A DNA stretch of 43,826 nt, taken from an uncultured Bacteroidales bacterium. Its GTDB lineage: Bacteria > Bacteroidota > Bacteroidia > Bacteroidales > Muribaculaceae. Positions 65 through 33,174 of the stretch are shown in pieces (within the stretch, counting starts at the first letter, position 1; every line of letters starts with the position of its first letter). The notes beneath the pieces are model-generated. The model was not told where the DNA came from and ran no database searches. It saw nothing but the letters and a program-made list of their open reading frames with translations. The stretch is taken from contig CACWID010000038.1 in assembly GCA_902760865.1 (NCBI GenBank), positions 1 to 43,826 on the forward strand, given 5' to 3'. The translations under genes and the position numbers were made by a program.

Positions 65-129
65 TTAATTTCCCGTGCGATAGCACGGTTATATTACCGT
101 GTCGCAATTATGGCACACCAGGTTGGGGG

Positions 130-20010: not shown

Positions 20011-21924
20011 TTATTCGTCGATAATGTGGAGGTTCTTGAAGGTGCGCAGCACGCGCAGGATGCCGCCCACGTTGGGGGCGAAGCTCACGGCCCCACGGCC
20101 GATGAAGGGCGGGTTGCCGTCATAGAGCTCGCTCAACGAGCCGATGCATCCCTCCTTCATCTCGTCCTCGAAGCCGATCATCATCCTCTCGATGAACGAG
20201 ATGCTGTTCAGGCCGAAGACGCGGATGTAGGCCTTGCTGTAGAAGTCCATCAGCCAGGGGCGGGCGCTGCCGGCATAGTAGGCCGTCTGGCGCTCCTCGG
20301 GAGTACCCACATACCAGGGGATGTACCCGTAGCTGTTGGGGCTCAGTGTTCGCAGTCCCTTGGGCGTCAGGAGCTCGCGGGTGGTGATGTCGAGCACGCG
20401 CTTGCGCTGACGGCGGTCCAGCGGGCTGTAGTCGGTGGCGGCGGCGATGATCATGTTGGGCCTTACGCTCAGGTCGGTGTAGCTGCCGTTTACATAGTCA
20501 TAGAGGTAGCCGTAGTCGGTCATGAACGTCTCGATGAAGGCGGGCTTGCACTTGTCGGCAATGTCGTTGCAGCGGGCAACAAAGTCCTTCTCCTCCTCGA
20601 GCTCGCCGAAGAGTTCCTCAACGGCAAAACGCAGCGCGTTGTACCACAGGGCGTTGAACTCGACCAGGTAGCCGGTGCGCGGAATCAGCGGCGTTCCGTC
20701 GGGGTGGGTGCTGTTCATCCACGAGACGGGGCGCTTGGTGCCGTCGGTGGCGATGAGGCCGTTGGGCTCCAGTTTGAGGTTGGGATGGCGGCCGTCGGCA
20801 ATAAAGTTGATGATGTCCTTGACCAGCTGGCCGTAGCGTTCACGTGCGGCCTGGGCATTGAGGTCGTGGGCATAGCGCTGCACGGCCCAGATGGCCCACA
20901 GCGGCACGTCGGGCAGCTCCAGGCCGTCGAGGTGCTTGTCGAGGGTACCGTCGCGCATCCAGTCGTTGAGGGCGCGCTGGGCGGTATCCATGATGAGCTC
21001 GAAGTCCTGGCGGTGGTGCACTGACAGCGTGCAGCCCGGCAGCGCGATGAACTCGTCGCGGGCGCGGATCTTGAACCAGGGGTAGCCGGCCAGCAGGTAG
21101 TGGCCCTCCTTGTTGGTGATATAGAACTGCTTGGCGCTGTTCTTCATGCAGTTGTAGAAGCTCGTGCGCGGTGTGCGCGGCTTGATCTCGTCCTCATACA
21201 ACTTGGTGAGCGTGCGGGTATTCACCTCCTCGACGCCGGCCGAGAAGATGAGCGGCTCGCCCTTCTTGATCTCGACCTCGAAGTAGCCGGGCACGTACAG
21301 GTCCTCGCTGTAGGGGATGCCGCGTTCCTGGTCCTTGGTGTACTCGATGTTCTTGTACCAGTGCGGGTCGAACACGAAGCGGGGCTTGTGGTTCATCTGC
21401 ATGTAGAGGGTGGGATAACCGTTGTACATGCAGGTGGCGATACCGTTTGACACCTCCTGGTAGTCACGGCTGGCAACGGCGTTCTCGACACACAGGTCGT
21501 TGGCGTTGCGGAAGGCCAGGAAGGGCCTGAACTGCAGGGTCGTTGCCGAGTGGGCATCCACGAGCGTGTAGCGTATGAGGATGCGGTTCTCGTGGGTGAT
21601 GAAGATTTTCTCCTTCTTCAGGATCACACCGCCCACGCGGTAGGTCGTCGTCGGCACGCGCTCGCAGTTATACTCGCGGATGTACTTGTGGCCGTTGGGG
21701 CTATAGGTGTCACCCTTATAGCGGTGCAGACCCAGGTTGAAAGGCGCACCGTGCTGGATGACCGTCTCGTCGAGAGAGGACAGCAGCACGTGGTTGTTGT
21801 CATCAAGTTCGGGAACGGGGATCACCAGCAGGCCGTGCTGCTTGCGGGTGTTGCAGCCCACGATGGTGGTGCAGTGATAGGCCCCCGACTGATTGGTGCG
21901 CAGCATCTCCTTGGGCAGTGACAA
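20011..21924 (-). CDS. Glycogen debranching enzyme (amylo-alpha-1,6-glucosidase)
   Basis: The protein has an N-terminal GDE_N-like beta domain (GAYHCTTIVGCNTRKQHGLLV onward) and a C-terminal (alpha/alpha)6 barrel typical of glycogen debranching enzymes (GDE_C), including LPGCTLSVHHRQDFE and GYLYDYVNGSYTDLSVRPNM. It removes alpha-1,6 branches from glycogen. The start is unusual: no in-frame ATG exists before conserved sequence. TTG at 21924 is the only standard candidate, yet homologues I recall are about 10-15 residues longer and the codons just upstream (N-N-E-L) still look family-like. An in-frame TGA lies 11 codons farther upstream, so the true start may be a rare codon such as ATT or the 5' end may be altered. 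Gene spacing on both sides indicates an operon. Confidence 0.93.
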   Translation of the reverse strand: MSLPKEMLRTNQSGAYHCTTIVGCNTRKQHGLLVIPVPELDDNNHVLLSSLDETVIQHGAPFNLGLHRYKGDTYSPNGHKYIREYNCERVPTTTYRVGGVILKKEKIFITHENRILIRYTLVDAHSATTLQFRPFLAFRNANDLCVENAVASRDYQEVSNGIATCMYNGYPTLYMQMNHKPRFVFDPHWYKNIEYTKDQERGIPYSEDLYVPGYFEVEIKKGEPLIFSAGVEEVNTRTLTKLYEDEIKPRTPRTSFYNCMKNSAKQFYITNKEGHYLLAGYPWFKIRARDEFIALPGCTLSVHHRQDFELIMDTAQRALNDWMRDGTLDKHLDGLELPDVPLWAIWAVQRYAHDLNAQAARERYGQLVKDIINFIADGRHPNLKLEPNGLIATDGTKRPVSWMNSTHPDGTPLIPRTGYLVEFNALWYNALRFAVEELFGELEEEKDFVARCNDIADKCKPAFIETFMTDYGYLYDYVNGSYTDLSVRPNMIIAAATDYSPLDRRQRKRVLDITTRELLTPKGLRTLSPNSYGYIPWYVGTPEERQTAYYAGSARPWLMDFYSKAYIRVFGLNSISFIERMMIGFEDEMKEGCIGSLSELYDGNPPFIGRGAVSFAPNVGGILRVLRTFKNLHIIDE

Positions 21925-21990
21925 CTCATTGTTGCGAATACATATTTTATTTCAGTTAATATTCTGTCGTGTTTGAATTTTGGAGTAGGA

Positions 21991-22896
21991 TTACACGCTG
22001 TCGGGCAGTGACGGAGGTACCAGGATGTTGATGCCCTTGCTGACGTTCTCGATGACAATCCTGGAGGGCAGCATGACGGGGTCGCCGTCGATGTGGACGA
22101 TATCTTCACGGCGGCGGTCGATGACGACGCGCTTGCCGCGGTAGATGCTCACGTGGTGGTCGTGGTCAAGCTTGCGCAGGAACAGGCGGGCGCCGATCAA
22201 TGGGCTCTGTACGATGTTGAACGGGTGCATCACCGTCACGTCGAGCAGGCCGTCCTGCATGGTGGCGCGTGGGGCGATGTAGGCATTGTTGCCATATTGT
22301 GCCGCGTTGCAGCATGCGATGACAAATGCTTTCTCGCTCATCTTCTTGCCGTCGATCTCGATGAGGTATTCTTGAGGCTTGTACTTGATATACTCGGTGA
22401 TGGTGGTCTTGATATAGGTGATGAACCCGCGCGTCCCCTCGTTGGAGAACTTGTAGCTCACCGCCGCGTCAAAGCCCATGCCGCAGGTGCAGAAGAATGG
22501 CTTGCTGTTCACCGTGCAGTAGTCGAACTGGCCGACCGTGCCGTCGTTGAGCAGCTGCAGGGCGCGGCTGGCATTCATCGGGATGCGCAGGTGGCGCGCC
22601 AGCCCGTTGCCCGAACCGCAGGGCACGATGGCCAGGGCCGTATCGGTGCCGCACAAGCCGCTCCCCACCTCGTTGACCGTGCCGTCGCCACCAATGGCGA
22701 TGACAAAGTCCAGGCCATCGTCTGCCGCCTGCTGGGCAAGCTCGCGGGCGTGGCCGGGGTACTCGCTCATAATGATGCTCACGTCATTACGTTCATGGTC
22801 AATCACGGTGTCGATCAGGCGAGGGATTTTGTCCTTGCTGCCAGTACCTGACACAGGGTTGATGATGGCGAGTATGTGCCTTCGTTTTTCTTCCAT
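21991..22896 (-). CDS. Diacylglycerol/lipid kinase family protein (YegS/DgkB-like)
   Basis: The 301-residue product has the lipid-kinase catalytic domain: IINPVSGTGSKD near the N-terminus, the hallmark GGDGTVNEV, and GSGNGLARHL. A C-terminal beta-sandwich domain follows (YLIEIDGKKMSEKAFVIACCNAAQYGNNAYIAP). It phosphorylates diacylglycerol or a related lipid using ATP at the inner membrane surface. ATG 22896 (MEEKRR) is chosen; the frame extends to a TTG at 22905 that overlaps the promoter -7 element. That element (TATCTTTG) ends 6 bases before the ATG, so the mRNA is likely leaderless. It heads the glycogen cluster with a 66-base gap to the debranching gene; a functional link to glycogen is not obvious. 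Confidence 0.9.
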   Translation of the reverse strand: MEEKRRHILAIINPVSGTGSKDKIPRLIDTVIDHERNDVSIIMSEYPGHARELAQQAADDGLDFVIAIGGDGTVNEVGSGLCGTDTALAIVPCGSGNGLARHLRIPMNASRALQLLNDGTVGQFDYCTVNSKPFFCTCGMGFDAAVSYKFSNEGTRGFITYIKTTITEYIKYKPQEYLIEIDGKKMSEKAFVIACCNAAQYGNNAYIAPRATMQDGLLDVTVMHPFNIVQSPLIGARLFLRKLDHDHHVSIYRGKRVVIDRRREDIVHIDGDPVMLPSRIVIENVSKGINILVPPSLPDSV

Positions 22897-22902
22897 TCCC
22901 TG

Positions 22903-22910
22903 CAAAGATA
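22903..22910 (-). promoter_or_regulatory. -7 element directly before the lipid kinase start
   Basis: The complement of 22903-22910 is TATCTTTG followed by CA, a strong Bacteroidetes -7 element. It ends 6 bases before ATG 22896. No TTTG at ideal spacing is visible. Confidence 0.55.
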
Positions 22911-22930
22911 ATACTTTTTTGTTTAATATT

Positions 22931-22961
22931 TTTGCTAATCGATGATTTTGAGATATTTTTG
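22931..22961 (+). promoter_or_regulatory. Promoter for the 23005 membrane-protein gene
   Basis: TTTG (22931-22934), a 19-base spacer and TATTTTTG (22954-22961) match the Bacteroidetes consensus well. It is divergent from the lipid kinase promoter; predicted leader about 40 bases. Confidence 0.7.
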
Positions 22962-23004
22962 TAGAAAAATTATTAACAGCTACCTGTTTAACGCTACAAA
23001 ACTA

Positions 23005-23586
23005 ATGAAAAAGGTCAGTATAAACCTGCTTACTAACGTGATTTTGCTGCTTGCAGGCATCATTCTAATCATCTTTCATGGTGTTCCCAGCATCATGCTG
23101 TGGGGCTGCCGGGTGATGGGTGCCATGTTCATGTTGCCCGCTGTCATTTATCTGGTGATGGTCGCTGTGCGCCACGCCGATGCCCGCACCAGTGCCGACT
23201 ATATGGGCGTCCTGCCCGCGGTGGGCGGCTTGTGCTTCGGTCTGGTGATGATTATCAAGGCCCACCTGTTCGACGGCATCCTGCAGATGTTCATGGGCAT
23301 GCTGCTGGTGGTGCTGGGACTGTTTCATGTCATCTACCTGTTGCTGTCCAGCAAGAGTCTGAAAATCAAGGGGTGGTATTACCTGTGCCCGCTCATTGTG
23401 GTGCTGTGCGGCCTCTTGTCGCTCTTGTTGCCCTCGCTGCGTGACAGCGATTCGACCGTGGTGCTGATGACGGGCATCTGCCTGCTGCTGTTCAACTTCA
23501 CCAGCCTGCAGGAATACCTGGCCGAGCGACGTGAGCGCCGTGCCGCCAGCATCGAGAAAGCACCTGTGACCGACGATGTGATTTGA
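23005..23586 (+). CDS. HdeD/DUF308-like integral membrane protein
   Basis: The 193-residue product from ATG 23005 (MKKVSINLL) is almost entirely hydrophobic with about six membrane helices: LLTNVILLLAGIILII, GAMFMLPAVIYLVMVAV, GVLPAVGGLCFGLVMII, MFMGMLLVVLGLFHVIYLL, YLCPLIVVLCGLLSLLL and VVLMTGICLLLFNF. It ends in a short charged tail (LAERRERR). The spacing of helices and Gly-rich turns resembles the HdeD/DUF308 family, some members of which relate to acid stress, but the similarity is general. The reading frame extends upstream to 22942, inside the promoter, so ATG 23005 is preferred. The gene is followed after 69 bases by a DUF3667 gene in the same direction. Confidence 0.78.
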   Translation: MKKVSINLLTNVILLLAGIILIIFHGVPSIMLWGCRVMGAMFMLPAVIYLVMVAVRHADARTSADYMGVLPAVGGLCFGLVMIIKAHLFDGILQMFMGMLLVVLGLFHVIYLLLSSKSLKIKGWYYLCPLIVVLCGLLSLLLPSLRDSDSTVVLMTGICLLLFNFTSLQEYLAERRERRAASIEKAPVTDDVI

Positions 23587-23655
23587 CCTCACAGGTAACT
23601 ATACCGCCGCTTCAAGTCCTGGGCAGATGCATCCTGTACTATCATAACTGATGCC

Positions 23656-24741
23656 ATGAGTTGGATTAAGGAAAAATATCGTCAGTTCCGTCGTTGGCAG
23701 GAAAATCCGTTTGAGTATCATGACTCGCATGGACACCATGTGTGCTGCAACTGCGGAGCCGAGTGTGACAACAACTTTTGTCCCCGTTGCGGCCTGAAGG
23801 CCACTAGCGGCCCCGTCACCTGGCGCAGTGTGTGGCAAGGCGTCCTGGACGTGTGGGGTGTGGGCACCCGCTCGTTGCCCTACTCGCTGTGGCAGCTGAT
23901 GTGGCGCCCTGGATACATGATGCGGGATTACATCAGCGGCAAGCGTCAAGTGAGCTTCCCGCCGGTCAAGATGCTCTTGCTCGTGAGCTTTGCTGTGATG
24001 CTGATAGGAAACTGGGTAGACCCTGAAGAAGAAGTAGTGACAGAGCCTATCACGTCAACAGGTGTGAGGTATTATCTTGACGTGATATCAGATTGGCTGG
24101 ACAGTCACACTGAATGGTTTGTTCTTGCCTGCTTCACGTTCCTTGTGGTGCCAGTCTGGGCCCTGTTCCGCTACTCGCCCAGGTGTACGAAGCACACTTT
24201 GCCACAAGGTTTCTTTGTCCAAGTGCTTGCTGCGTCACAATTCTACTTGTGGCTGATGTTGGCCTTTTTAGTCGTCAGTCTGTTGGTGCCCGATGGTGAT
24301 TATGAATTTGTCGGGTTTACAGTCTTTGTCGTCTTGCTCCCCATCATGCTGATGGTCGATTTCAAGCAATTGTTCGGTTTCGGCTGGTGGGGCACCTTGT
24401 GGAGAACAGTCATGACGGTGCCATTAGGAATCTTGTTATTTAGGATAGTAACGAATGTTTGCCGTCTGCTGCTGTGGCAGTATGAGGGGAATATAGGTCA
24501 CCACACATGGAAGACCCTGATATCAGCTCTCGACGGGGCCGCATTGCTGTGGCTGTCTATGGAAATCGTGAGACTGGTCAACCTCAAGGAGTGGCGCAAA
24601 CGTGGCTGGAGGCAAGTGTTAAAGCGCCCCATGCTGGCCTTCTTGGTTTATGTCGTGTTTAGTTTGGCTATCTACTTCCTGGGCTATCAAGGAGCCCTAG
24701 CCAACCTGTTTGATACTTATATTTCTCTTATTGATTATTAA
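23656..24741 (+). CDS. DUF3667-type zinc-ribbon membrane protein
   Basis: The 361-residue protein opens with a short zinc ribbon (Cys30-x2-Cys33 and Cys42-x2-Cys45 in CNCG...FCPRCG). The conserved amphipathic segment with RPGYMMRDYISGKRQVSFPPVKMLLL follows, as in DUF3667 proteins, and then five or six membrane helices. DUF3667 is widespread in Bacteroidetes; its function is not known. The paired cysteines suggest metal binding on the cytoplasmic face. The ATG at 23656 fits. It is separated by only 9 bases from the dockerin/SUMF1 gene, so the two are likely co-transcribed. G+C is lower in the second half than in nearby housekeeping genes. Confidence 0.82.
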   Translation: MSWIKEKYRQFRRWQENPFEYHDSHGHHVCCNCGAECDNNFCPRCGLKATSGPVTWRSVWQGVLDVWGVGTRSLPYSLWQLMWRPGYMMRDYISGKRQVSFPPVKMLLLVSFAVMLIGNWVDPEEEVVTEPITSTGVRYYLDVISDWLDSHTEWFVLACFTFLVVPVWALFRYSPRCTKHTLPQGFFVQVLAASQFYLWLMLAFLVVSLLVPDGDYEFVGFTVFVVLLPIMLMVDFKQLFGFGWWGTLWRTVMTVPLGILLFRIVTNVCRLLLWQYEGNIGHHTWKTLISALDGAALLWLSMEIVRLVNLKEWRKRGWRQVLKRPMLAFLVYVVFSLAIYFLGYQGALANLFDTYISLIDY

Positions 24742-24750
24742 TCTGATTCA

Positions 24751-25647
24751 ATGACGTCTCTGGTTAGGAAAACTTGTTTTGTGTCCTTCTTTGTTTTGCT
24801 GATGTCTGTTCAGGCTTCGGCAGATGATGACTTGCGAGGCGACGTGAACCGGGATGGACGGATTAACATCGGCGACGTCACTGAGCTTATCGGCTTTCTG
24901 CTCAATGGTGAGTGGCATGACGAGTCGCCGATTGAGACATTTACCGTGGCTGGCGTGTCGTTCAATATGGTACAGGTCGAGGGTGGCTCCTTCATGATGG
25001 GTGCCGCCGACGACGATGCCGAGGCTGCCGACCGCGAGCGTCCTGCCCACCGGGTGACCCTCTCAGGCTATAGCATCGGCGAGACCGAGGTGACCCAGGA
25101 ACTCTGGCAGGCCGTTATGGGCTACAACCCGAGCGACATGACCGATGACCCGCAGCGCCCCGTGGATTACGTTTCTTGGGACGAGTGCCAGCAGTTTATC
25201 GCTCGGCTTAATGAAATGACAGGCCAGGCTTTCCGCCTGCCCACCGAGGCCGAGTGGGAATTTGCTGCCCGTGGCGGCAACCATAGCAAGGGATACAAGT
25301 ATGCCGGCAGCGACAATGTGGACGAGGTGGCATGGTATGACGGTAACAGTTATTATGTGGATATGGACGACCCCGACTTCGGGAGCCATGCTGTGAAGAC
25401 CCTCGCGCCTAACGAGTTGGGCTTGTATGACATGAGCGGCAACGTGATGGAGTGGTGCCAGGACTATTATGGCCCCTACAGCGCAGGAGCCCAGACCGAC
25501 CCCGCGGGCCCTTCAAGCGGCTATGGCCGCGCGACACGTGGCGGCAGCTGGGGCGGTGCGGCATCGGCCTGCCGCGTCAGCTATCGCGGCTCGGGAACGG
25601 TGCAGTCTGCCGCAGGCCATTACCGCGGCTTCAGGCTTGCCCTGTAG
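24751..25647 (+). CDS. Secreted SUMF1-family protein with N-terminal dockerin-like repeat
   Basis: The 298-residue product has a signal peptide (about 1-24). A single dockerin-type calcium loop comes next (residues 30-53, D-x-N-x-D-G-x-I-N-x-x-D), then a SUMF1/formylglycine-generating-enzyme-like fold from about 72 to the end (GGSFMMGA, RLPTEAEWEFAARGG, ELGLYDMSGNVMEWCQD, RGGSW at 263-267, GFRLAL). True formylglycine-generating enzymes use two active-site cysteines in the RGGSW segment; here only Cys274 is present, so oxidase activity is unlikely. Related proteins without the pair serve as binding or structural domains. The dockerin-like repeat in Bacteroidetes secreted proteins is common, but it usually sits at the C-terminus. 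The role is unknown; likely exported with the DUF3667 membrane protein's operon. Confidence 0.85.
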   Translation: MTSLVRKTCFVSFFVLLMSVQASADDDLRGDVNRDGRINIGDVTELIGFLLNGEWHDESPIETFTVAGVSFNMVQVEGGSFMMGAADDDAEAADRERPAHRVTLSGYSIGETEVTQELWQAVMGYNPSDMTDDPQRPVDYVSWDECQQFIARLNEMTGQAFRLPTEAEWEFAARGGNHSKGYKYAGSDNVDEVAWYDGNSYYVDMDDPDFGSHAVKTLAPNELGLYDMSGNVMEWCQDYYGPYSAGAQTDPAGPSSGYGRATRGGSWGGAASACRVSYRGSGTVQSAAGHYRGFRLAL

Positions 25648-25687
25648 CACCACGTTGGTTTGTGTGGCCTCGTCATCGTGAAAAACA

Positions 25688-25725
25688 AGCAGCGCGCCCT
25701 TCCCAATCGAGGAGGGCGCGCTGCT
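25688..25725 (-). terminator. Terminator of rpmE2
   Basis: A perfect 13-bp G+C-rich stem (25688-25700 with 25713-25725) and 12-base loop. On the minus strand it is followed by TGTTTTT, so it serves rpmE2; it may also stop transcripts of the convergent SUMF1 gene. Confidence 0.82.
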
Positions 25726-25779
25726 GTGTCTTGTAGTAACTGCCGCGAGCGCTCACGACAGTGATGCTGTCTAGTCTTC

Positions 25780-26034
25780 TTATTTCTTCTTGCGGTTGCC
25801 GTAGCGCTGCATGAACTTGTCCACGCGACCTGCGGTGTCGACGAGCTTCTGCTTACCGGTGAAGAACGGGTGTGAGGTGTTGGTAATCTCAAGCTTCACC
25901 AGGGGATAGGTGGTACCGTCGATCTCAATGGTCTCCTTGGTGTTCACCGTGCTGCGGGTGATGAAGACCTCCTCATTAGACATGTCCTTGAAAGCAACCT
26001 CGCGATAGTTGCTGGGATGGATATCCTTCTTCAT
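25780..26034 (-). CDS. rpmE2: 50S ribosomal protein L31, type B
   Basis: The 84-residue protein is recognisable from [18 protein letters not shown], the central [18 protein letters not shown] and the basic C-terminus [13 protein letters not shown]. It lacks the CxxC zinc ribbon, so it is the zinc-independent (C-minus) paralogue of L31, located at the ribosomal subunit bridge. The gene is monocistronic, between a TACCTTTG promoter element at 26112-26119 with a leader of about 70 bases, and a strong terminator at 25688-25725. In organisms with two L31 types this one is favoured under zinc limitation; whether a second copy exists cannot be judged from this window. Confidence 0.97.
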
Positions 26035-26111
26035 TTTTTCGATATATCTTTAAAGTGTTAAACAATACAATTTTGTGGCGGTGGTAAACGCCCAATTTTT
26101 GTAATGGCGCG

Positions 26112-26119
26112 CAAAGGTA
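26112..26119 (-). promoter_or_regulatory. -7 element for rpmE2
   Basis: The complement of 26112-26119 is TACCTTTG followed by CGC. It gives a leader of about 70 bases, long enough for regulation. Confidence 0.55.
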
Positions 26120-26232
26120 CAACCTTTTTTTGAACTGGAAAAACTTTTTCCTCGATTTTTTTTGTTTTTTGCTGATTGATAAGGGTTATCTAGGCTTTTG
26201 TAAGGGCTCTCTGGCCGTCATCATGTGCGGCG

Positions 26233-27090
26233 TCATCCCAACCAGAAGGATTTCCCGCCCCAGATGCGTTGCACCTTTTTGTCCGACAGGTTGTAGATGT
26301 ACAGGATGCGTATGCGCCAGGTCTTGATGGTCTCGCCGACCCTGTCCGAGAGCATGCAGTATTCCCACCAATTGTAGTCGTCACGCCACCATTCATAGGA
26401 AGTGTAATGATGTTTCAGACCCCATCGCGACAGCTCAGTACCATCATGATTCTTCAGGTACACCTGGGCCTTGTCAGGGGCAACTGACAGATTCAGGTTA
26501 TGGCCAAGGGCCACGCGAGCATAGATGATGACCCCTTCGTCGCCTGAGCCATGACCGCCAGAATAATGTTTAGCAGTGTCCTTGTCCATAGTGAAGTAGA
26601 TTCCTGTGCCCGCAAAATTGCCGCCACCGACTCTCCAGATGCCGGGGACGGAGATGCTGACCGATGATTTGAGCCTGGTGCCGTGCATCATTGTCAGCGT
26701 GGGCACGATAGTGTCAATGGCCGTGAACAAGGCTCCCTCGAGCAGCTTGGCGATAAAGGTAAAGCTGTTCTTGAGGACCCTGACGGGAAGACCGAAGAGC
26801 CAGTAGAGAAAATAGACAAAGCCTTTCTTCTGGCGAGTCCAGAGGTTGACACGGGGCCTGAAAATCTCGAGGTAATGGTCCTTGAGGCTGAATACACCAT
26901 AGACCAGCAGGTCGTACCACACGGCGTTGACAAACCGCAACGGCGCCAGTACAAAATACATGACAAGATTGTAGGTCCAGTGAAAGATCCTGATTTTGTG
27001 CAGCCTCCTTACGGTTTTGGATTCCTTCTTCAGGGCCGAGCGATATGGCCTCTGAAGGATGTATTGCAGTCTGTTCAGGAGAGAGAACAT
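26233..27090 (-). CDS. Membrane-anchored PARP-like ADP-ribosyltransferase
   Basis: The N-terminal half of this 285-residue protein is basic then hydrophobic, with likely membrane segments at about 41-66, 91-105 and 112-134. The C-terminal half (about 131-268) reads as a PARP-type ADP-ribosyltransferase domain. It has MHGTRL with His136, GTGIYFTMDKDTAKHY with Tyr165, the strand GVIIYARVALG (186-196), and WWEYCMLSD with Glu243 before the terminal RIRILYIYNL strand. That is the H-Y-E triad of PARP1-like enzymes, in the right order and spacing. It would transfer ADP-ribose from NAD+ to a target on the cytoplasmic face of the membrane (inference). I know no named bacterial family with this membrane-PARP architecture. 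The gene is single, with a TATCTTTG element upstream; G+C is somewhat below its neighbours. Confidence 0.72.
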   Translation of the reverse strand: MFSLLNRLQYILQRPYRSALKKESKTVRRLHKIRIFHWTYNLVMYFVLAPLRFVNAVWYDLLVYGVFSLKDHYLEIFRPRVNLWTRQKKGFVYFLYWLFGLPVRVLKNSFTFIAKLLEGALFTAIDTIVPTLTMMHGTRLKSSVSISVPGIWRVGGGNFAGTGIYFTMDKDTAKHYSGGHGSGDEGVIIYARVALGHNLNLSVAPDKAQVYLKNHDGTELSRWGLKHHYTSYEWWRDDYNWWEYCMLSDRVGETIKTWRIRILYIYNLSDKKVQRIWGGKSFWLG

Positions 27091-27137
27091 GATGATTTAG
27101 AACTAATATGATGAATAACTGTTTGTTAATTGCGCCG

Positions 27138-27145
27138 CAAAGATA
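27138..27145 (-). promoter_or_regulatory. -7 element for the PARP-like gene
   Basis: The complement of 27138-27145 is TATCTTTG followed by CGG, 47 bases ahead of the start codon. It lies between trkH and the PARP-like gene and suggests separate transcription. Confidence 0.55.
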
Positions 27146-27209
27146 GTCATAAAAGTTGACGCTGCTGGCTTTTTGGCATCAATTTTTACGCTATGGCTCG
27201 AGGTGACGG

Positions 27210-28667
27210 CTACTGGTTTTTCCAGAAGGAGGGCGAGAAGATGACCAGGATGGTGAAAATCTCGAGACGGCCCATGAGCATCAGTCCCGACAGAATCCAT
27301 TTCACGCCGGCGGGCAGTATGCTCCAGGACATGGTCGGCCCGATTTCCAGTCCCAGGGTGGGCCCCACGTTGCTGGCGCAACTGAGGGCTATGGTGAACG
27401 AGTTGGTGCTGTCCACGCCGGTGAGAATCATGATGAAATAGGCGGTGAAACACAGGGCAATGTAAGCGATGAAGAAGGCCAATAATGTAATCTGGCCCGA
27501 TGTGGCCACCGTCGAGTCACCCGACTTGACAGGCAGCAGGGCCTTGGGGTGCAGCATGTGCCGTATCTCGTTGCGCAGGATTTTGAGGGCGATGACGCCA
27601 CGCGCGCACTTGAAACCGCCCGCCGTGCTCCCGGCACAGCCGCCGAAGAACATGCAGAAGCTCAAGATCACCCAGGTGATGTGGTGCCACTGGGCGGCAT
27701 CCTCGTTGAACATGCCCGTCGTGGTGAGGAACGACACCGTCTGGAACAGCGAGACACGGATGGCGTCGCTGACGGTGTAGTCGTTGTAACGCAGCAGGAA
27801 ATAGACGATGAGCGCAGCGGGAATGAGCGCCAGTGCAGCATAGAAGCGGAATTCGGCGTTCTTGATCAGCTGGCGGACCTTGCCCTTGATCAAAGCGGCG
27901 TAGAGCAGGGCGAAGCTCACGCCCGAAAGGAACATGAACACGATGGCCGTGTAGTCGATGGCGGGACTGTGGAAGTAGCCCGTGCTGGCATCATGGGTGG
28001 CAAAGCCGCCGGTGGCCGTGATGGTCATCGCATAGTTGACGGCGTCGAACAAGTCCATGCCGAAGACGAAGAACAGCGCGCCGCATGCTGCCGTCAGCAG
28101 CAGGTAGATGCCCCACAGCGCCTGGGCCATGGTGCTCAGACGGGGGTGCATCTTGGTCTTGACGGGGCCGGTCGCCTCGGCTGCAAAGACCTTGACCGAG
28201 CCGCCGACAAACGACGGGATGATGGCTATGGTGAAGAAGACAATTCCCAAGCCGCCGATCCACTGGGTCATCGAGCGCCAGAAGAGCAGCCCGTGAGGCA
28301 GACCCTCCACCTGATTGATGATGGTCGCCCCGGTGGTCGTCAGCCCTGACATCGTCTCGAAGAAGGCGTCGGTCACGCTATGGATGTAGCCGCCGATGAG
28401 AAACGGCAGTGAGCCGAAGATGCCGAAGGCGATCCACACGACCGAGACCAGCAGGTAGGCATCGCGGCGGCTCAGCGCGCTGCTGGCGTGACGTCCCGAT
28501 AGCCTCAACACCGTCCCCGTGACGGCCGTGATGGCCACCGTGATGGCAAAGGGGGTGATGTCGCTTTCCTGGTAGCACAATGACAGGAGCAGGCACAGCG
28601 TCATGAATGCTGCCTCGATCCACAGCAATGTGCCCAAAATCTTGAATATCAGCTTGTAGTTGAGCAT
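27210..28667 (-). CDS. trkH: Potassium uptake protein TrkH
   Basis: The 485-residue inner-membrane protein has the repeated membrane-pore-membrane layout of TrkH/KtrB transporters. Selectivity-filter-like turns include ETMSGLTTTGAT, MTITATGGFATHD, QTVSFLTTTGMFNED and the last SCASNVGPTLGLEIG. It carries K+ (with Na+ or H+) into the cell when gated by the TrkA ring. Start ATG 28667 lies 8 bases after the trkA stop codon, so the two form an operon in the order trkA-trkH. Length and filter motifs are typical. Confidence 0.95.
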   Translation of the reverse strand: MLNYKLIFKILGTLLWIEAAFMTLCLLLSLCYQESDITPFAITVAITAVTGTVLRLSGRHASSALSRRDAYLLVSVVWIAFGIFGSLPFLIGGYIHSVTDAFFETMSGLTTTGATIINQVEGLPHGLLFWRSMTQWIGGLGIVFFTIAIIPSFVGGSVKVFAAEATGPVKTKMHPRLSTMAQALWGIYLLLTAACGALFFVFGMDLFDAVNYAMTITATGGFATHDASTGYFHSPAIDYTAIVFMFLSGVSFALLYAALIKGKVRQLIKNAEFRFYAALALIPAALIVYFLLRYNDYTVSDAIRVSLFQTVSFLTTTGMFNEDAAQWHHITWVILSFCMFFGGCAGSTAGGFKCARGVIALKILRNEIRHMLHPKALLPVKSGDSTVATSGQITLLAFFIAYIALCFTAYFIMILTGVDSTNSFTIALSCASNVGPTLGLEIGPTMSWSILPAGVKWILSGLMLMGRLEIFTILVIFSPSFWKNQ

Positions 28668-28675
28668 CGGGGTGG

Positions 28676-30022
28676 TCAGATGAAGTATTTCTCGATACGG
28701 CTTATTTCGGTCCCGTGGCAGAATACCACCACGATGTCACCGGCCTGGATGAGGGTGTCGCCATTGACCAGCAGGCCCTTGTCGCCGCGGACGATGCCGC
28801 CCAGCTCGGCCTCGCGGGGGAAGTTCAGGTCTCGCACCCGCTTGCGGGTGATGCGCGAGCCGGGACTGGCGACAAATTCGGCGATGTCGGCATTGACGTT
28901 CAGCAGGTTGCGCATGTTGCGCACATCGCCGTCCAGCATCATCTGGTAGATGTGGCTCGCGGTCAGTGCCTGCTTGTTGATGATGGTCCCGATGTCCACG
29001 TTGCCGGCGATGCCCACATAGTCCATGTTCTCGATCATGGCGATGGTCTTGTGGATGCCCAGCTCTTTAGCGGTCAGGCAGGCGAGAATATTGGCCTCGG
29101 CGTTGCCCGTGAGCGCGATGAATGCCTGTGACCCCTTGATGTTCTCTTCCATCAGGTTGGCTACCGAACGTCCGTCGGCGTTGATGACCATGACGCGGTC
29201 AGGATTCACCAGGTCGATAAGTTCTTCACACCTGCGCGGGTCCGACTCAAATATCTTGGCCTTGATGCCGTGGGGCAGCATATTGGCCACGCGGACTGCC
29301 GTTTTGCCGCCGCCCACGATGATGACGCTCTTCACGTCCGGGTAGTTCTCCTTGCCCAGGATTTTTCTCATGCTGGGGACAAAATCGCGCGTTGTCATGA
29401 AATAGACATAGTCGCCGCTGACGAGCATGTCATTGCCCGTGGGGATGATGGTGTCGGTGCCGCGCTTGATGGCGACGACGTGGTAGGGGGAGTCGGGCTT
29501 GAAGATGTCCTTGAACGGCTGCCCCAGGATTTCACATGACTCATGCACCTTGATGCCCAGCAGCGTGAGGGCGCCGCCATGCACTTCCCACCGCTGGCGA
29601 ACCCACGTGAGCTCCAGGCCGTTGATGATGTCGAGGGCGGCCAGGTTGTCGGGGTAGATGATGCTGGTGATGCCTGCCGCGCGGAACGACTCGACGACCT
29701 GGCGGTCGGTCAGTTCGACGTTTTCGACCTTGGCGACGGTCTTTCGGGCACCCATGGACTTGGCCAGCACGCACAGGCTCAAGTTCTTGTTCTCGTCGGG
29801 CGTTACGGCGATAAAAAGGCCCGCCTTGTGGACACCGGCCTCCTTGAGCACACTCACCGGAGTGGCCGAGGTGCAATGGATGGTCATCAGGTCGCAGTCC
29901 GACTGGATGCGTTCAAGCTTCTGTTCATCATCATCGATGATGACGATGTCCTGGTGGATTTTTGAGAATAAGTCGGCCAAGTGAGCTCCGATGGCTCCGG
30001 CCCCGATAATGATCACTCTCAT
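28676..30022 (-). CDS. trkA: Trk system potassium transport regulator TrkA
   Basis: From ATG 30022 (MRVIIIGAGAIGAHLA) the 448-residue protein has two RCK modules in tandem. Each has a Rossmann NAD(H)-binding start (VIIIGAGAIG at the N-terminus, SVIIVGGGKTAV near the middle) and a TrkA_C domain (for example REAELGGIVRGDKGLLVNGDTLIQAGDIVVVF at the end). It forms the cytoplasmic ring that gates TrkH in response to nucleotides. The frame is open upstream to 30082, but ATG 30022 starts exactly at the first beta strand and sits 30 bases after a TATATTTG element. Confidence 0.95.
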   Translation of the reverse strand: MRVIIIGAGAIGAHLADLFSKIHQDIVIIDDDEQKLERIQSDCDLMTIHCTSATPVSVLKEAGVHKAGLFIAVTPDENKNLSLCVLAKSMGARKTVAKVENVELTDRQVVESFRAAGITSIIYPDNLAALDIINGLELTWVRQRWEVHGGALTLLGIKVHESCEILGQPFKDIFKPDSPYHVVAIKRGTDTIIPTGNDMLVSGDYVYFMTTRDFVPSMRKILGKENYPDVKSVIIVGGGKTAVRVANMLPHGIKAKIFESDPRRCEELIDLVNPDRVMVINADGRSVANLMEENIKGSQAFIALTGNAEANILACLTAKELGIHKTIAMIENMDYVGIAGNVDIGTIINKQALTASHIYQMMLDGDVRNMRNLLNVNADIAEFVASPGSRITRKRVRDLNFPREAELGGIVRGDKGLLVNGDTLIQAGDIVVVFCHGTEISRIEKYFI

Positions 30023-30052
30023 TGCTTTGATGGTTATGATTGCTTGGGGCTG

Positions 30053-30060
30053 CAAATATA
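30053..30060 (-). promoter_or_regulatory. -7 element for trkA-trkH
   Basis: The complement of 30053-30060 is TATATTTG followed by CAG. No clear -33 TTTG is seen. Confidence 0.45.
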
Positions 30061-30289
30061 TGTTATTTAGTGGAATGTTCATGATTCAGATGGAAATAAT
30101 CTGTTAATTATCGTTTTTTGTTATGGCAAACGGTAATGTCATGCGCTAAAAGCGGACTTACATCTGTGATTTTGAGACGCGTTTGGCTAAAATGCTAAAA
30201 AAATCGGTCCATGTGGTGGCTGATTGTAAAATAATGAGTATTTTTGCAGGTCAAAATTGATTTGAAGTTTTTCAGAAATAGAATTTAGA

Positions 30290-31036
30290 ATGAGTATTCT
30301 CACCAGAATCTTTGGAAGCAAAAAAGAGCAGGTTAAACTCTTCTATAATACAGATATCCATTGCCACATCCTGCCGGGTGTGGACCATGGCTCACGGTCT
30401 ATTGAACAATCGCTCGACATGCTGCGCGCCGAGCAGGAAATGGGTATCAGCCGTGTCATCCTCACCTCACACGTGACGGCAGTGACCTTCGAGAACACGC
30501 GCGAGACCCTGATGGACGCCTTCTTGAAGCTCAAGGACGCTGTGACCGACGCCGGCCTCGAGATGGACCTTTACTTGAGCGCCGAATACCGCATGGACGA
30601 GTACTTCGACAAGGAATATGCCGCCGACCACCTCATCCCCATGCCGGGCAATCACATCCTGCTCGAGAACTCCTTCCAGCAGGAGCTGATGAACCTGAAT
30701 GACCTGCTGTTTGACATGCAGGTGAAGGGTTACAAGACCATCCTGGCTCATCCCGAGCGCTACACCTACTACTCGCGCCGCCGCAAGCGCTATGAGGAGC
30801 TGCACAACGCGGGAGCACGGTTCCAGATCAACATCCTGTCGTTCACCGGTTACTTCGGCGAGGAGGCTCGTGAGAGCGCTCTCTGGTTTGCCAAGAACGG
30901 AATGATTGACTACCTGGGCAGCGACATGCACAACGTCAAGCATGCACACATCATCATGGACTACCTCAACTCCAAGGAGTGGAAGAAGCTGAGCCGTGAC
31001 CTCGAGCAGACCGTCAAGAACGACCTGATCATTTAA
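30290..31036 (+). CDS. CpsB/CapC-type PHP tyrosine phosphatase (YwqE-like)
   Basis: The 248-residue cytoplasmic protein matches the metal-dependent PHP-fold tyrosine phosphatases of capsule systems. It has DIHCHILPGVDHG (His24, His26, Asp32), LTSHVT, AEYRMDEYF, ILAHPERYTYY and GSDMHN, each supplying expected metal ligands. Family members normally read DDG where this protein has Asp32-His33-Gly; His could still bind metal. Such enzymes dephosphorylate tyrosine kinases that control polysaccharide polymerisation. Here it is solitary, far from the WcaJ-like gene at 2351 and without an adjacent Wzc kinase. A weak TATTTTTG element at 30239-30246 may drive it. Confidence 0.9.
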   Translation: MSILTRIFGSKKEQVKLFYNTDIHCHILPGVDHGSRSIEQSLDMLRAEQEMGISRVILTSHVTAVTFENTRETLMDAFLKLKDAVTDAGLEMDLYLSAEYRMDEYFDKEYAADHLIPMPGNHILLENSFQQELMNLNDLLFDMQVKGYKTILAHPERYTYYSRRRKRYEELHNAGARFQINILSFTGYFGEEARESALWFAKNGMIDYLGSDMHNVKHAHIIMDYLNSKEWKKLSRDLEQTVKNDLII

Positions 31037-31116
31037 TTATTTTCACTTGCTATTTCGATGGATTACCCATGGCCGAAGCTAACGCTTGCGGCCCTGTTCG
31101 TCGTGTACGTCACTTC

Positions 31117-31321
31117 AATTAACGTGAGTTCGACGAAATTATTTATTGTCAATCAGTGCGTTAGCAACTCCCCCTCTAAGATTAGGGGGCAGGGAGCGTT
31201 GATGCCCCAAGAGTAGGTGTTCTGAGGGTGAATCATACTCCTCCGGCGCTACGCGCCACCTCCCCTATCTTAGGGGAGGAATTGAGTATCAGTTACTTAT
31301 TCGTCAAACTCACGTTCAATT
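31117..31321. mobile_element. MITE-like element, copy B, with terminal inverted repeats
   Basis: AATTAACGTGAGTTCGACGAA at the left end (31117-31137) is the near-complement of the right end (31300-31321). Most positions of the ~21-base termini pair. The 205-base interior has no gene; it holds a CCCCCTCTAAGATTAGGGGG hairpin and the CCTCCCCTA/TAGGGGAGG hairpin shared with copy A at 130-274. This is the structure of a non-autonomous transposable element; no transposase is present in the window. Confidence 0.65.
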
Positions 31322-31335
31322 AGCACTCCACAAGG

Positions 31336-31422
31336 CCTGTAGAGACGCAAAATTTTGCGTCTCAAGGGTAGCATTTGGTAATGTCCAACGAATTGAGACG
31401 CAAAATTTTGCGTCTCTACAGG
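31336..31422. repeat. 30-bp perfect inverted repeat built of two 22-bp palindromes
   Basis: 31336-31365 is the exact reverse complement of 31393-31422 (30 of 30). Each arm contains a 22-base perfect palindrome, GAGACGCAAAA followed by its complement, at 31342-31363 and 31395-31416. The 27-base centre is unique. It directly follows the MITE-like element and precedes the plsC stop codon. Together the two elements fill most of the gene-free stretch 31037-31455. Confidence 0.9.
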
Positions 31423-31455
31423 ATGTTCGGTAGTAGAATTTGAAATACGAGGGCT

Positions 31456-32178
31456 TTAGTCCCGCATGTCTTGGGGGAGGTCCTGCTGGATGAGTGTGCG
31501 GCACTCGTGGCTCACCTGGGCGATGTCGTTGCCGCCGGTGTGCTCGATGGGCTTGTGGAAGGTGAGGGTGATGGTGCCCGGGGTGACGTTGAACGTGCTG
31601 CGGGGCATTACCTTGTAACTGCCGTCGATGGTGATGGGCACTACGGGAAGCCCGAACTCCAGCGCGAGTTTGAAGGCTCCGTTCTTGAAGGGTCCCATCT
31701 TGCCGGTGCCGGTGCGACGTCCCTCAGGGAAGACGACAATCGACATGCCGCCGTGCAGCTTCTTCTTGGCGGCGGCCATCGTGTCACGCAGGCCCTGGGT
31801 CGAATGGGTATCGACCAGGATGTGTCCCGCCATGCGGCAGGCGGTGCCGATGAGGGGGATGTTGGTGATGCCCTTGCGCATCATCCACTTGAAGTTGTGC
31901 CCCAGAAAACCGTATATCGAGAAGATGTCGTAAGCCCCCTGATGATTGGCGACAAACACGTAGCTCGTCTCGTGGTCCACGTGCTCACGGCCTGCAACGC
32001 GGATGCGCACCAGGTGCAGCCAGCACCAGATGCGGGCCCACCACTTGGCCGGGAAATAACCCCAATAGTCCTGGTTGAACAGGCTGCCGATGATGGTGAC
32101 GAGCGCGGTGAGGATGCTGAGAACAAGCATGATGGGCGACACAATGCACCATTGGTATATTCTGTAAAGGTATATCAT
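31456..32178 (-). CDS. plsC: 1-acyl-sn-glycerol-3-phosphate acyltransferase (PlsC family)
   Basis: From ATG 32178 the 240-residue protein has an N-terminal membrane segment (IVSPIMLVLSILTALVTIIGSLF). The acyltransferase motifs follow: NHQGAYD (H-x4-D), a PLIG-type turn, FPEGRRTGTG (substrate binding) and LPVVPITIDGSY. It makes phosphatidic acid from lysophosphatidic acid at the inner membrane. ATG 32178 is preferred over the upstream frame extension to 32235 because the promoter element lies at 32215-32222. The gene is monocistronic; its 3' end abuts the palindromic repeat at 31336-31422. Confidence 0.92.
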   Translation of the reverse strand: MIYLYRIYQWCIVSPIMLVLSILTALVTIIGSLFNQDYWGYFPAKWWARIWCWLHLVRIRVAGREHVDHETSYVFVANHQGAYDIFSIYGFLGHNFKWMMRKGITNIPLIGTACRMAGHILVDTHSTQGLRDTMAAAKKKLHGGMSIVVFPEGRRTGTGKMGPFKNGAFKLALEFGLPVVPITIDGSYKVMPRSTFNVTPGTITLTFHKPIEHTGGNDIAQVSHECRTLIQQDLPQDMRD

Positions 32179-32214
32179 TGTTCTATCAATCACAAGTTCT
32201 TGTTTTGAGTACCG

Positions 32215-32245
32215 CAAAATTACAGTTTTTGGCAATATGTTGCAA
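32215..32245 (-). promoter_or_regulatory. Promoter for plsC
   Basis: Minus strand TAATTTTG (complement of 32215-32222) with TTG 20 bases upstream (complement of 32243-32245); leader about 30 bases. Confidence 0.6.
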
Positions 32246-32313
32246 GAGTATGCGTGTGATATAGTCTAGAACAGGTACAGATTTAACGCAATTTAGGACA
32301 CGAGTATTCGGTC

Positions 32314-32362
32314 GTGATTAGTGATTAATGATTAGTGATTAGCGTTTAGTGATTAGTGATTA
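32314..32362. repeat. Heptameric intergenic array (GTGATTA)7
   Basis: Seven 7-base units: GTGATTA twice, ATGATTA, GTGATTA, GCGTTTA, GTGATTA twice. It lies between plsC and the response regulator gene, next to a terminator-like hairpin. Confidence 0.88.
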
Positions 32363-32365
32363 GTG

Positions 32366-32416
32366 AGGCATCCGCACTCACCGTTTGACGGGAATGCGGA
32401 TGCCTATTAGGTTTTT
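32366..32416 (+). terminator. Terminator-like hairpin oriented for the plus strand
   Basis: AGGCATCCGCA (32366-32376) pairs perfectly with TGCGGATGCCT (32395-32405) across an 18-base loop. It is followed on the plus strand by ATTAGGTTTTTT. No plus-strand gene lies upstream for more than 1 kb, and on the minus strand the stem is followed by the heptamer array instead of T residues. Confidence 0.6.
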
Positions 32417-32426
32417 TAATAATCTT

Positions 32427-32444
32427 AGCGCCTTAGCGTGAGGC
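32427..32444. repeat. 18-base repeat AGCGCCTTAGCGTGAGGC, copy 1
   Basis: An identical 18-mer occurs at 40217-40234. Here it lies 19 bases after the response-regulator stop codon; there it spans the uvrA stop codon. The internal unit CTTAGCG occurs twice at 8-base spacing, similar in style to the other arrays. Confidence 0.7.
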
Positions 32445-32463
32445 TTGTGGGGAAGGGTGGTTA

Positions 32464-33174
32464 CTACTTCTCCTCGGTGTCCACCTCGGGGGCGATGAGC
32501 TTGTAGCCCTTGCCGTGGATGTTGATGATCTCGATCGAGGGGTCCTCCTTGAGTTTCTTGCGCAGCTTGGTGATGTAAACGTCCATCGAACGGGCATTGA
32601 AGTAGTTGTCGTCGATCCAGATGGTCTTCAGCGCGAAGTTGCGCTCCAGAATCTCGTTCAGGTGGGCGCACAACAGGCTCAGCAGCTCGCTCTCCTTGGT
32701 GGTCAGGTTCTCGCTGCGGTCATCGGTGAACAGCACCTGGCGCTGGGTGTCGAAGGTGAACTTGCCGATCTTGTAAACGGTCACTTCCTTACCCTTCTTG
32801 CCCTTGACGCGGCGCAGGATGGCCTCGATGCGCATCACGAGCTCCTCCATCGAGAAGGGCTTGGTGATGTAGTCGTCGGCACCGATCTTGAAGCCCTCGA
32901 GGATGTCCTCCTTCAGGGCCTTGGCGGTGAGGAAAATGATGGGCACGTCGCTGTTGACGGCGCGGATCTCCTGGGCGAGCTGGTAGCCGTCCTTCTTGGG
33001 CATCATCACGTCGAGCAGGCAGATGTCATACTTGCCCTTGAGGAAAGCCTTGTAACCGGCTTCGCCGTCGGCATACAGTTCGGCCTTGAATCCCTTGTCC
33101 TCGAGATACTCGCGGGTGAGGGTTCCCAGGTTCTCGTCGTCCTCGCACAACAGAATTCTCAGTTTCTCTTCCAT
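32464..33174 (-). CDS. rprY: OmpR-family response regulator, RprY-like
   Basis: The 236-residue protein has a receiver domain with phospho-acceptor Asp55 (ICLLDVMMPKKDG), acidic Asp12/Asp13 and the conserved switch Lys in DDYITKPF. A C-terminal winged helix has ESELLSLLCAHLNEILERNFALKTIW and the recognition segment SMDVYITKLRKKL. The whole sequence closely resembles RprY of Bacteroides, which with RprX forms an envelope-located two-component system. It lies 19 bases after the rprX stop codon. RprY in other species has been linked to stress and metabolic genes; targets here are unknown. Confidence 0.93.
   Translation of the reverse strand: MEEKLRILLCEDDENLGTLTREYLEDKGFKAELYADGEAGYKAFLKGKYDICLLDVMMPKKDGYQLAQEIRAVNSDVPIIFLTAKALKEDILEGFKIGADDYITKPFSMEELVMRIEAILRRVKGKKGKEVTVYKIGKFTFDTQRQVLFTDDRSENLTTKESELLSLLCAHLNEILERNFALKTIWIDDNYFNARSMDVYITKLRKKLKEDPSIEIINIHGKGYKLIAPEVDTEEK

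Follow-up and report, generated by a model that had tools for sequence, protein, structure and literature searches.

The window, as we call the whole 43,826-nucleotide stretch analysed here (contig CACWID010000038.1 of assembly GCA_902760865.1, from an uncultured Bacteroidales bacterium), carries on its minus strand at 26233..27090 a gene for a 285-residue protein of a Bacteroidales family of PARP-like ADP-ribosyltransferases (ARTs) of the His-Tyr-Glu (H-Y-E) type. We give roughly even odds to a reading in which the fuller form of this family would be a membrane sensor with a conflict output based on nicotinamide adenine dinucleotide (NAD), the window gene being a copy without the sensor. The assignment is carried by an invariant catalytic triad, a predicted PARP-like fold and a set of relatives, in most of which the catalytic domain is preceded by a bacterial SH3 domain and a transmembrane segment. 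The surprise rests with the family; the window copy is its most divergent intact member.

A PARP-like catalytic domain

The open reading frame (ORF) at 26233-27090 starts with ATG and runs through 285 codons with no internal stops. As the original prediction had proposed, it encodes in PARP order His136 (26683..26685), Tyr165 within a GTGIYF motif (26596..26598) and Glu243 within WWEYCM (26362..26364), all on the minus strand, and the strand GVIIYARVALG lies between them at residues 186-196. The three triad residues are invariant in all 25 rows of alignment A2, which consists of the window protein and 24 Bacteroidales relatives (L013-L036), and the same holds for E233-W-W-R, D238, W241 and W242. 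In profile alignments, His136 matches the His of four other Bacteroidota PARPs and Tyr165 their GYGLYF motif, one of the four (L076) being itself devoid of the usual HG and Tyr. These alignments end at residue 202, before Glu243, and Glu233 is invariant too; we infer from its place in the modelled strand 241-247 and its invariance that Glu243 would be the equivalent of the PARP catalytic Glu.

The catalytic domain (residues 131-271; 26278..26700, minus strand) was recognised by Pfam, by fold searches and by a family profile search that led to PARP4. The Pfam PARP model PF00644 matched residues 135-209 with an E-value of 2.2e-5 and 24.5 bits; this score lies below the cut-off of 26.7, and the protein is therefore filed as a divergent PARP-like ART and not as a member of PF00644. 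Ten full-length relatives were scanned in the same way: seven matched the PARP model at E ≤ 0.01, of which two (L013 with 30.7 bits and L036 with 26.8) exceeded the cut-off; the other eight of the ten fell short of it. Across the order, PF00644 matched 9 of 295 genomes, those of the query and of an Odoribacter locus included, none above the cut-off. A phmmer search of the PDB returned one weak match to the window protein, PARP-2 (E 0.92).

An alignment-based AlphaFold2 model of the window protein reached a predicted local distance difference test (pLDDT) score of 76.5, and all 50 PDB matches listed by the fold search with this model are PARP catalytic domains; such lists cover only chains ranked by Foldseek, and families outside them may still resemble the model. 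Among the fold matches in BFVD are a PARP-like protein of an iridescent virus and polyvalent ARTs of phages. With the window protein as query, scans of NCBIfam and PHROGs gave nothing relevant, and no PADLOC family matched at E ≤ 1. The WGR domain was matched neither in the window protein (E up to 1) nor in the ten relatives (E up to 0.01).

Family search, triad conservation and fold search thus support the predicted ART fold and the PARP-like identity put forward in the original prediction. Two refuting outcomes had been named there, a model lacking the ART fold and homologues in which the triad is not conserved, and neither occurred.

Ahead of the catalytic domain lies a conserved hydrophobic region (residues 1-130; 26701..27090, minus strand), predicted to be helical; helices at residues 27-47, 49-77 and 101-128 are among those of the AlphaFold2 model, and R52, N55, E75, P79, R104 and E118 are invariant in all A2 rows.

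Relatives and their domain layout

The family is rare and patchy. Searching the genomes of the query's own taxonomic family with the window protein matched 3 of 397, itself included, the others being the full-length L002 and L003 (41% and 39% identity, respectively); the same search of 61 relatives' genomes matched only its own. Genome contigs scanned with a three-sequence alignment (A1) yielded 25 relatives that share 31-40% identity from residue 1 or 2 through 284; L025 and L026 are the contigs of L002 and L003. A2 omits one of these, the frame-broken L037. Searched with A2, the phylum gave a single match in 395 genomes, the query's own, and the order three in 393, the query's again included. 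Bacteroidales group names are borne by 24 of the 25 relatives. L016 is labelled Rickettsiales; its protein is nested among Bacteroidales sequences in the tree (96/94 support). No relative was found in phages, plasmids or viral contigs (searches with the window protein; A1 in viral contigs; P0003, plasmids; P0002, phages), and a phage or plasmid origin is accordingly unsupported.

Two further loci deserve mention. In the Odoribacter relative L037 (5569-6916) the ART gene is broken over two frames, through either decay or an error of assembly. L040 (1501-2418), one of the matches to A2 in the order and itself in no alignment, is a more divergent relative that by eye keeps HGT, G.GVYF and WEYC, has an altered EWW motif and scores only 19.3 bits against Pfam PARP.

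In seven of the ten full-length relatives scanned, Pfam SH3_3 matched above its cut-off. A profile built from those seven SH3 regions matched 20 of the 25 relatives, 13 of them outside the training set, and gave no match in L013, L014, L019, L025, L036 or the query. In these 20 the PARP domain comes last, after a bacterial SH3 domain, a transmembrane segment and the hydrophobic helical region, in that order. Most open frames of the 25 relatives have a signal-peptide-like start, as judged by eye, and a strong hydrophobic segment (Kyte-Doolittle values up to 2.7 in 14 relatives) follows the SH3 domain in all 20 SH3-bearing relatives listed. The conserved part then opens with a basic segment (mean net charge +5.2) and continues into two hydrophobic stretches, parted by an acidic loop (-2.2), before reaching the catalytic domain. 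This charge pattern fits a cytosolic catalytic domain, but the charges flanking the first transmembrane segment are not decisive. No C-terminal hydrophobic window was found in 14 relatives, some of which have a window of 1.41-1.49 inside the catalytic domain. Judged by sequence, the fuller form resembles one-component transmembrane receptors, with the SH3 domain probably outside and the catalytic domain probably inside the cell.

The window protein begins at the conserved part, without the SH3 domain and without the strong transmembrane segment, and the loop between its hydrophobic stretches carries a charge of +5 where that of its relatives is acidic. One 19-residue window (111-129) reaches a Kyte-Doolittle value of 1.4, four windows ahead of residue 130 reach 1.0, and none attains 1.4 beyond residue 129. 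The three or so N-terminal hydrophobic segments originally predicted are thus a generous count for this copy, strong segments being found in its relatives; membrane anchoring is supported for the family, most relatives having the SH3 domain and a strong hydrophobic segment, and only weakly for the window protein, which has lost both.

Gene neighbourhoods, insertion and alternative readings

The 25 relative loci contain 239 ORFs of at least 80 residues, ART frames and probably spurious ORFs among them. A Pfam scan of 51 hand-picked neighbours (17 of them without a match at E ≤ 0.001) confirmed that TIR genes flank the ART gene in L013, that L027 has two and L035 one, and that RyR genes are present in L013, L014, L017 and L027, so that 5 of the 24 relatives have TIR or RyR in their loci. 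It also confirmed AAA/AAA_lid_6 ATPases in L014, L016, L017, L024, L030 and L032, DUF1963 in L018 and L019, and NYN in L016, L024, L029 and L036. Cas6b, TerB, metallophosphatase, MscS, DUF4062, Sel1, C39-peptidase-like, LRR and GH115 genes occur in 1-3 loci each. When ten neighbour proteins were submitted to PADLOC three matched, namely the two L013 TIR proteins and, weakly, the L023 TerB protein.

The ART loci make up 0.449% of the 24 genomes concerned (59.6 Mb), which encode 21 RyR, 30 AAA_lid_6 and 44 TIR genes. Assuming uniform placement, RyR was observed in 4 of 24 loci against 0.094 expected (Poisson P 3e-6), AAA_lid_6 in 6 against 0.135 (P 7.5e-9) and TIR in 3 against 0.205 (P 1.2e-3); 7 of the 21 RyR genes fall in ART loci.

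Three loci show further features. The L013 contig (G1180:C1, about 53,600-76,800) holds all ten TIR_2 matches of its genome within ~23 kb around the ART gene, together with two of the three RyR matches of that genome, and forms a dense TIR/RyR island. The 15.5-kb L016 contig carries ART, Cas6b, AAA_lid_6 ATPase, NYN and RyR genes and a TIR match in a 1889-residue frame; because its ART groups with Bacteroidales despite the Rickettsiales label, it is probably mis-binned in that metagenome-assembled genome. A conserved acidic protein of ~135 residues is encoded directly upstream of the ART gene in three related loci (L033 4984-5391, L034 341-793 and L035 4981-5394) and two genes downstream in L028 (7600-8007); its L034 copy has no Pfam match.

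In the window, the gene stands alone between two Pfam-confirmed neighbours on the same strand, as originally described: rpmE2, for ribosomal protein L31 (25780..26034; PF01197, E 9.7e-28), downstream, and trkH (27210..28667; PF02386, E 7.9e-57) upstream, the latter preceded by a trkA-like gene with TrkA_N and TrkA_C domains (28676..30082). Comparison with 17 same-genus trkH orthologues (75-85% identical) revealed an empty site in ten loci, where rpmE2 lies 108-145 bp beyond trkH and no gene intervenes; in one of the ten, L044, the contig covers rpmE2 only at its start. The remaining seven showed neither rpmE2 nor ART in the sequence inspected past trkH (up to 1.5 kb); these loci are therefore differently arranged and uninformative on insertion. 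The window has ~1.05 kb of extra DNA at this point, and we place the inserted single-gene cassette at approximately 26155..27209 (minus strand; edges ± ~20 bp). The GC content is 0.523 for ART, 0.597 for trkH, 0.579 for trkA and 0.522 for rpmE2; since rpmE2 is as low as ART, composition is not decisive for insertion. Repeats sought at the edges included no convincing target-site duplication. A functional partnership with TrkA/TrkH was considered and rejected, as the empty same-genus sites argue that adjacency to trkH is fortuitous.

A promoter element of its own, also part of the original prediction, is half borne out: a Bacteroidetes-type -7 box, TATCTTTG, lies at 27138..27145 (minus strand) and resembles the box preceding rpmE2 (repeat D9), and no convincing -33 box, judged by the consensus, was seen upstream of the gene at the usual spacing.

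Around the insertion, a 10-nt perfect inverted repeat, CTGGAAAAAC/GTTTTTCCAG, occupies 26135-26144 and 27216-27225, its arms lying in the rpmE2 promoter region and the trkH end, separated by the inserted DNA. The empty site of L045, the one that was folded, forms a 10-bp hairpin (z -2.65). The inverted-repeat site is a possible insertion hotspot. Downstream of rpmE2, the window encodes an FGE-sulfatase-like protein (24751-25647), in which a region close to the N-terminus gives a weak dockerin-like match (21.6 bits, cut-off 22.9), and a DUF3667 protein (23656-24741). Of the 10 same-genus loci that have rpmE2 after trkH, 8 encode relatives of this DUF3667 protein past rpmE2. Elsewhere, the query genome has three RyR and two macrodomain matches, none of them in the window; the three RyR matches, one of them sub-cut-off, fall within 4.3 kb of another contig (G000:C5 98,957-103,269), a possible RyR island.

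Several points weigh against a conflict role. The RyR, AAA_lid_6 and TIR families were chosen only after being seen; the sister relatives L013 and L014 share an 87% identical RyR gene, and counting three RyR events raises P to 1.3e-4; and accessory genes cluster anyway. A conserved partner gene was sought across the relative loci and not found, some relatives adjoin metabolic genes (GH115 in L020, for example), and the twelve window genes from 20011 to 33174 have the appearance of housekeeping, regulation or envelope genes, with no RyR anywhere on the contig and no TIR among these twelve, to which the TIR search was limited. Such points would suit a general ART for envelope or translation regulation, acting in a stress response or on a membrane partner, with the islands reflecting clustering of accessory genes. 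We consider this rather unlikely, given the patchy distribution of the family (3/397, 1/395 and 3/393 genomes, the query's own counted each time) and the excess of RyR and AAA_lid_6 genes nearby, far above uniform expectation. Only the neighbours of the relatives hint at the phage defence role floated in the original prediction; the window locus does not.

The window copy could also be a decaying or recently inactivated remnant of a family in which the relatives alone are functional. It is the shortest and most divergent of the intact members seen, lacking the SH3 domain and the strong transmembrane segment and stopping short of the conserved C-terminal tail. Its tree branch is by far the longest (4.82 against a median of 0.25), a value that depends on the model and comes with an unsure position. 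Among the 71 columns invariant in the 24 relatives it alters 17, whereas every other row, when left out in turn, alters 0-2. However, the frame is intact over its full length, the 54 columns kept include the triad, GGGN.AG.GIYF and EWWR.D..WWE are retained, and the -7 box is present. The catalytic half is also better conserved than the N-terminal half (mean identity to the relatives 43.8% and 31.5%, respectively, compared with 60.8% and 51.9% among the relatives themselves). Decay thus appears unlikely, and on these comparisons the window copy is best described as a shortened, fast-diverging single-gene insertion of the Bacteroidales family.

Less probable still is an ART fold retained as a sensor that binds NAD or ADP-ribose without transferase activity. 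Some PARP-fold proteins, such as PARP13, are inactive, and PARP13 structures are among the fold matches listed; PARP13-like losses affect the triad, however, which is complete in all 25 rows. Finally, chance occurrence of H, Y and E in a helical membrane protein that is not a PARP, for which one might cite the poor single-sequence model (pLDDT 48, set aside here) and the sub-cut-off Pfam match, is highly improbable, as family, profile and fold searches all yield PARPs and the conservation of the pattern indicates that it is not due to chance.

Proposed mechanism and comparison with known systems

The best-supported mechanism would be that of a PARP-type ART at the cytosolic face, whether mono- or poly-ADP-ribosylating, which in the fuller form is controlled through the membrane by the extracytoplasmic SH3 domain. 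In that form, the signal peptide at the N-terminus and the SH3 domain would lie outside the inner membrane, the transmembrane helix and hydrophobic helical region would lie in or on that membrane, and the catalytic domain would face the cytosol, where NAD+ is found. The external domain or the membrane region may sense an envelope insult, such as phage entry or cell-wall damage, and so free the catalytic domain from the hold of the helical region. In PARP1 a regulatory helical domain precedes the catalytic domain, and the hydrophobic helical region occupies the corresponding position. Once freed, the catalytic domain would draw on NAD+ for the ADP-ribosylation of a target, either of the cell or of the invader, and the ART would be one output of NAD-based conflict islands that also hold RyR, TIR and AAA genes. 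The window copy, having lost the external sensor and the strong transmembrane segment, would act as a stand-alone, membrane-peripheral transferase in a one-gene insertion. More tentatively, the family might be described as a bacterial 'receptor PARP', in which a single polypeptide joins an extracytoplasmic SH3 sensor through a membrane segment to a cytosolic PARP domain that converts a signal from the envelope into intracellular ADP-ribosylation and serves as an NAD-based immune output in RyR/TIR/AAA islands, the window gene being a sensor-less mobile derivative.

A PARP domain joined across the membrane to an SH3 domain in a patchy Bacteroidales family would amount to a new layout for signalling and allow tests of whether PARP-type ADP-ribosylation serves bacteria in envelope or phage sensing. 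Through the RyR and TIR genes that lie close to several of its members, the family is connected to immune signals derived from NAD, on which research is very active. We found no description of a bacterial SH3-transmembrane-PARP protein in the literature, our partial coverage of which does not establish absence from print.

The eukaryotic PARP/ARTD domains of PARP4, PARP2, tankyrase and plant SRO proteins are the best PDB matches listed, with 11-22% identity in the structural alignments listed. They share with the window family the predicted ART fold, HG[TS], G.GIYF and a late, presumably equivalent Glu; here, a hydrophobic helical region precedes the domain, as do an SH3 domain and a transmembrane segment in most relatives.

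Relative to Thoeris TIR and RyR nucleotide-signal systems, the family has no fixed operon, and no TIR or RyR gene was seen at the window locus. Described Thoeris systems are not known to include an ART. The likeness lies in NAD-derived chemistry and in the TIR or RyR genes of the five relatives' loci. As described in PMC13232231, a phage RyR-domain glycosidase cleaves the cyclic ADP-ribose signals 2'/3'cADPR and related proteins sequester them; a grouping of ART, RyR and TIR is therefore chemically coherent, although the term 'ADP-ribosyl' is absent from that text.

Bacterial PARPs, as far as the accessible portions of two surveys go, are scattered, mostly of the WGR type and DNA-repair-like (PMC4245714, PMC5966428). 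Perina et al. (PMC4245714) list 28 PARP homologues in 27 bacterial species, mostly WGR plus PARP, seven of them with a regulatory domain and seven consisting of the PARP domain alone, and WGR-based layouts are likewise described by Garcia-Saura et al. (PMC5966428). The term 'SH3' appears in neither survey; 'transmembrane' appears in PMC4245714, in the portions accessible for eukaryotic PARPs only. The H-Y-E PARP domain is common to these proteins and to the window family, and WGR was matched in one of two scanned PARPs from other Bacteroidota; the window family differs in having no WGR domain, in its SH3-transmembrane front and in relatives confined to Bacteroidales records. Membrane association is shared with PARP16/ARTD15, described in the parts available of PMC3372510, PMC7695420 and PMC4245714 as a membrane-associated PARP with an alpha-helical domain. 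Its transmembrane region is C-terminal and lies in the endoplasmic reticulum, whereas the Bacteroidales family carries its membrane parts on the N-terminal side, after an SH3 domain that is probably extracytoplasmic.
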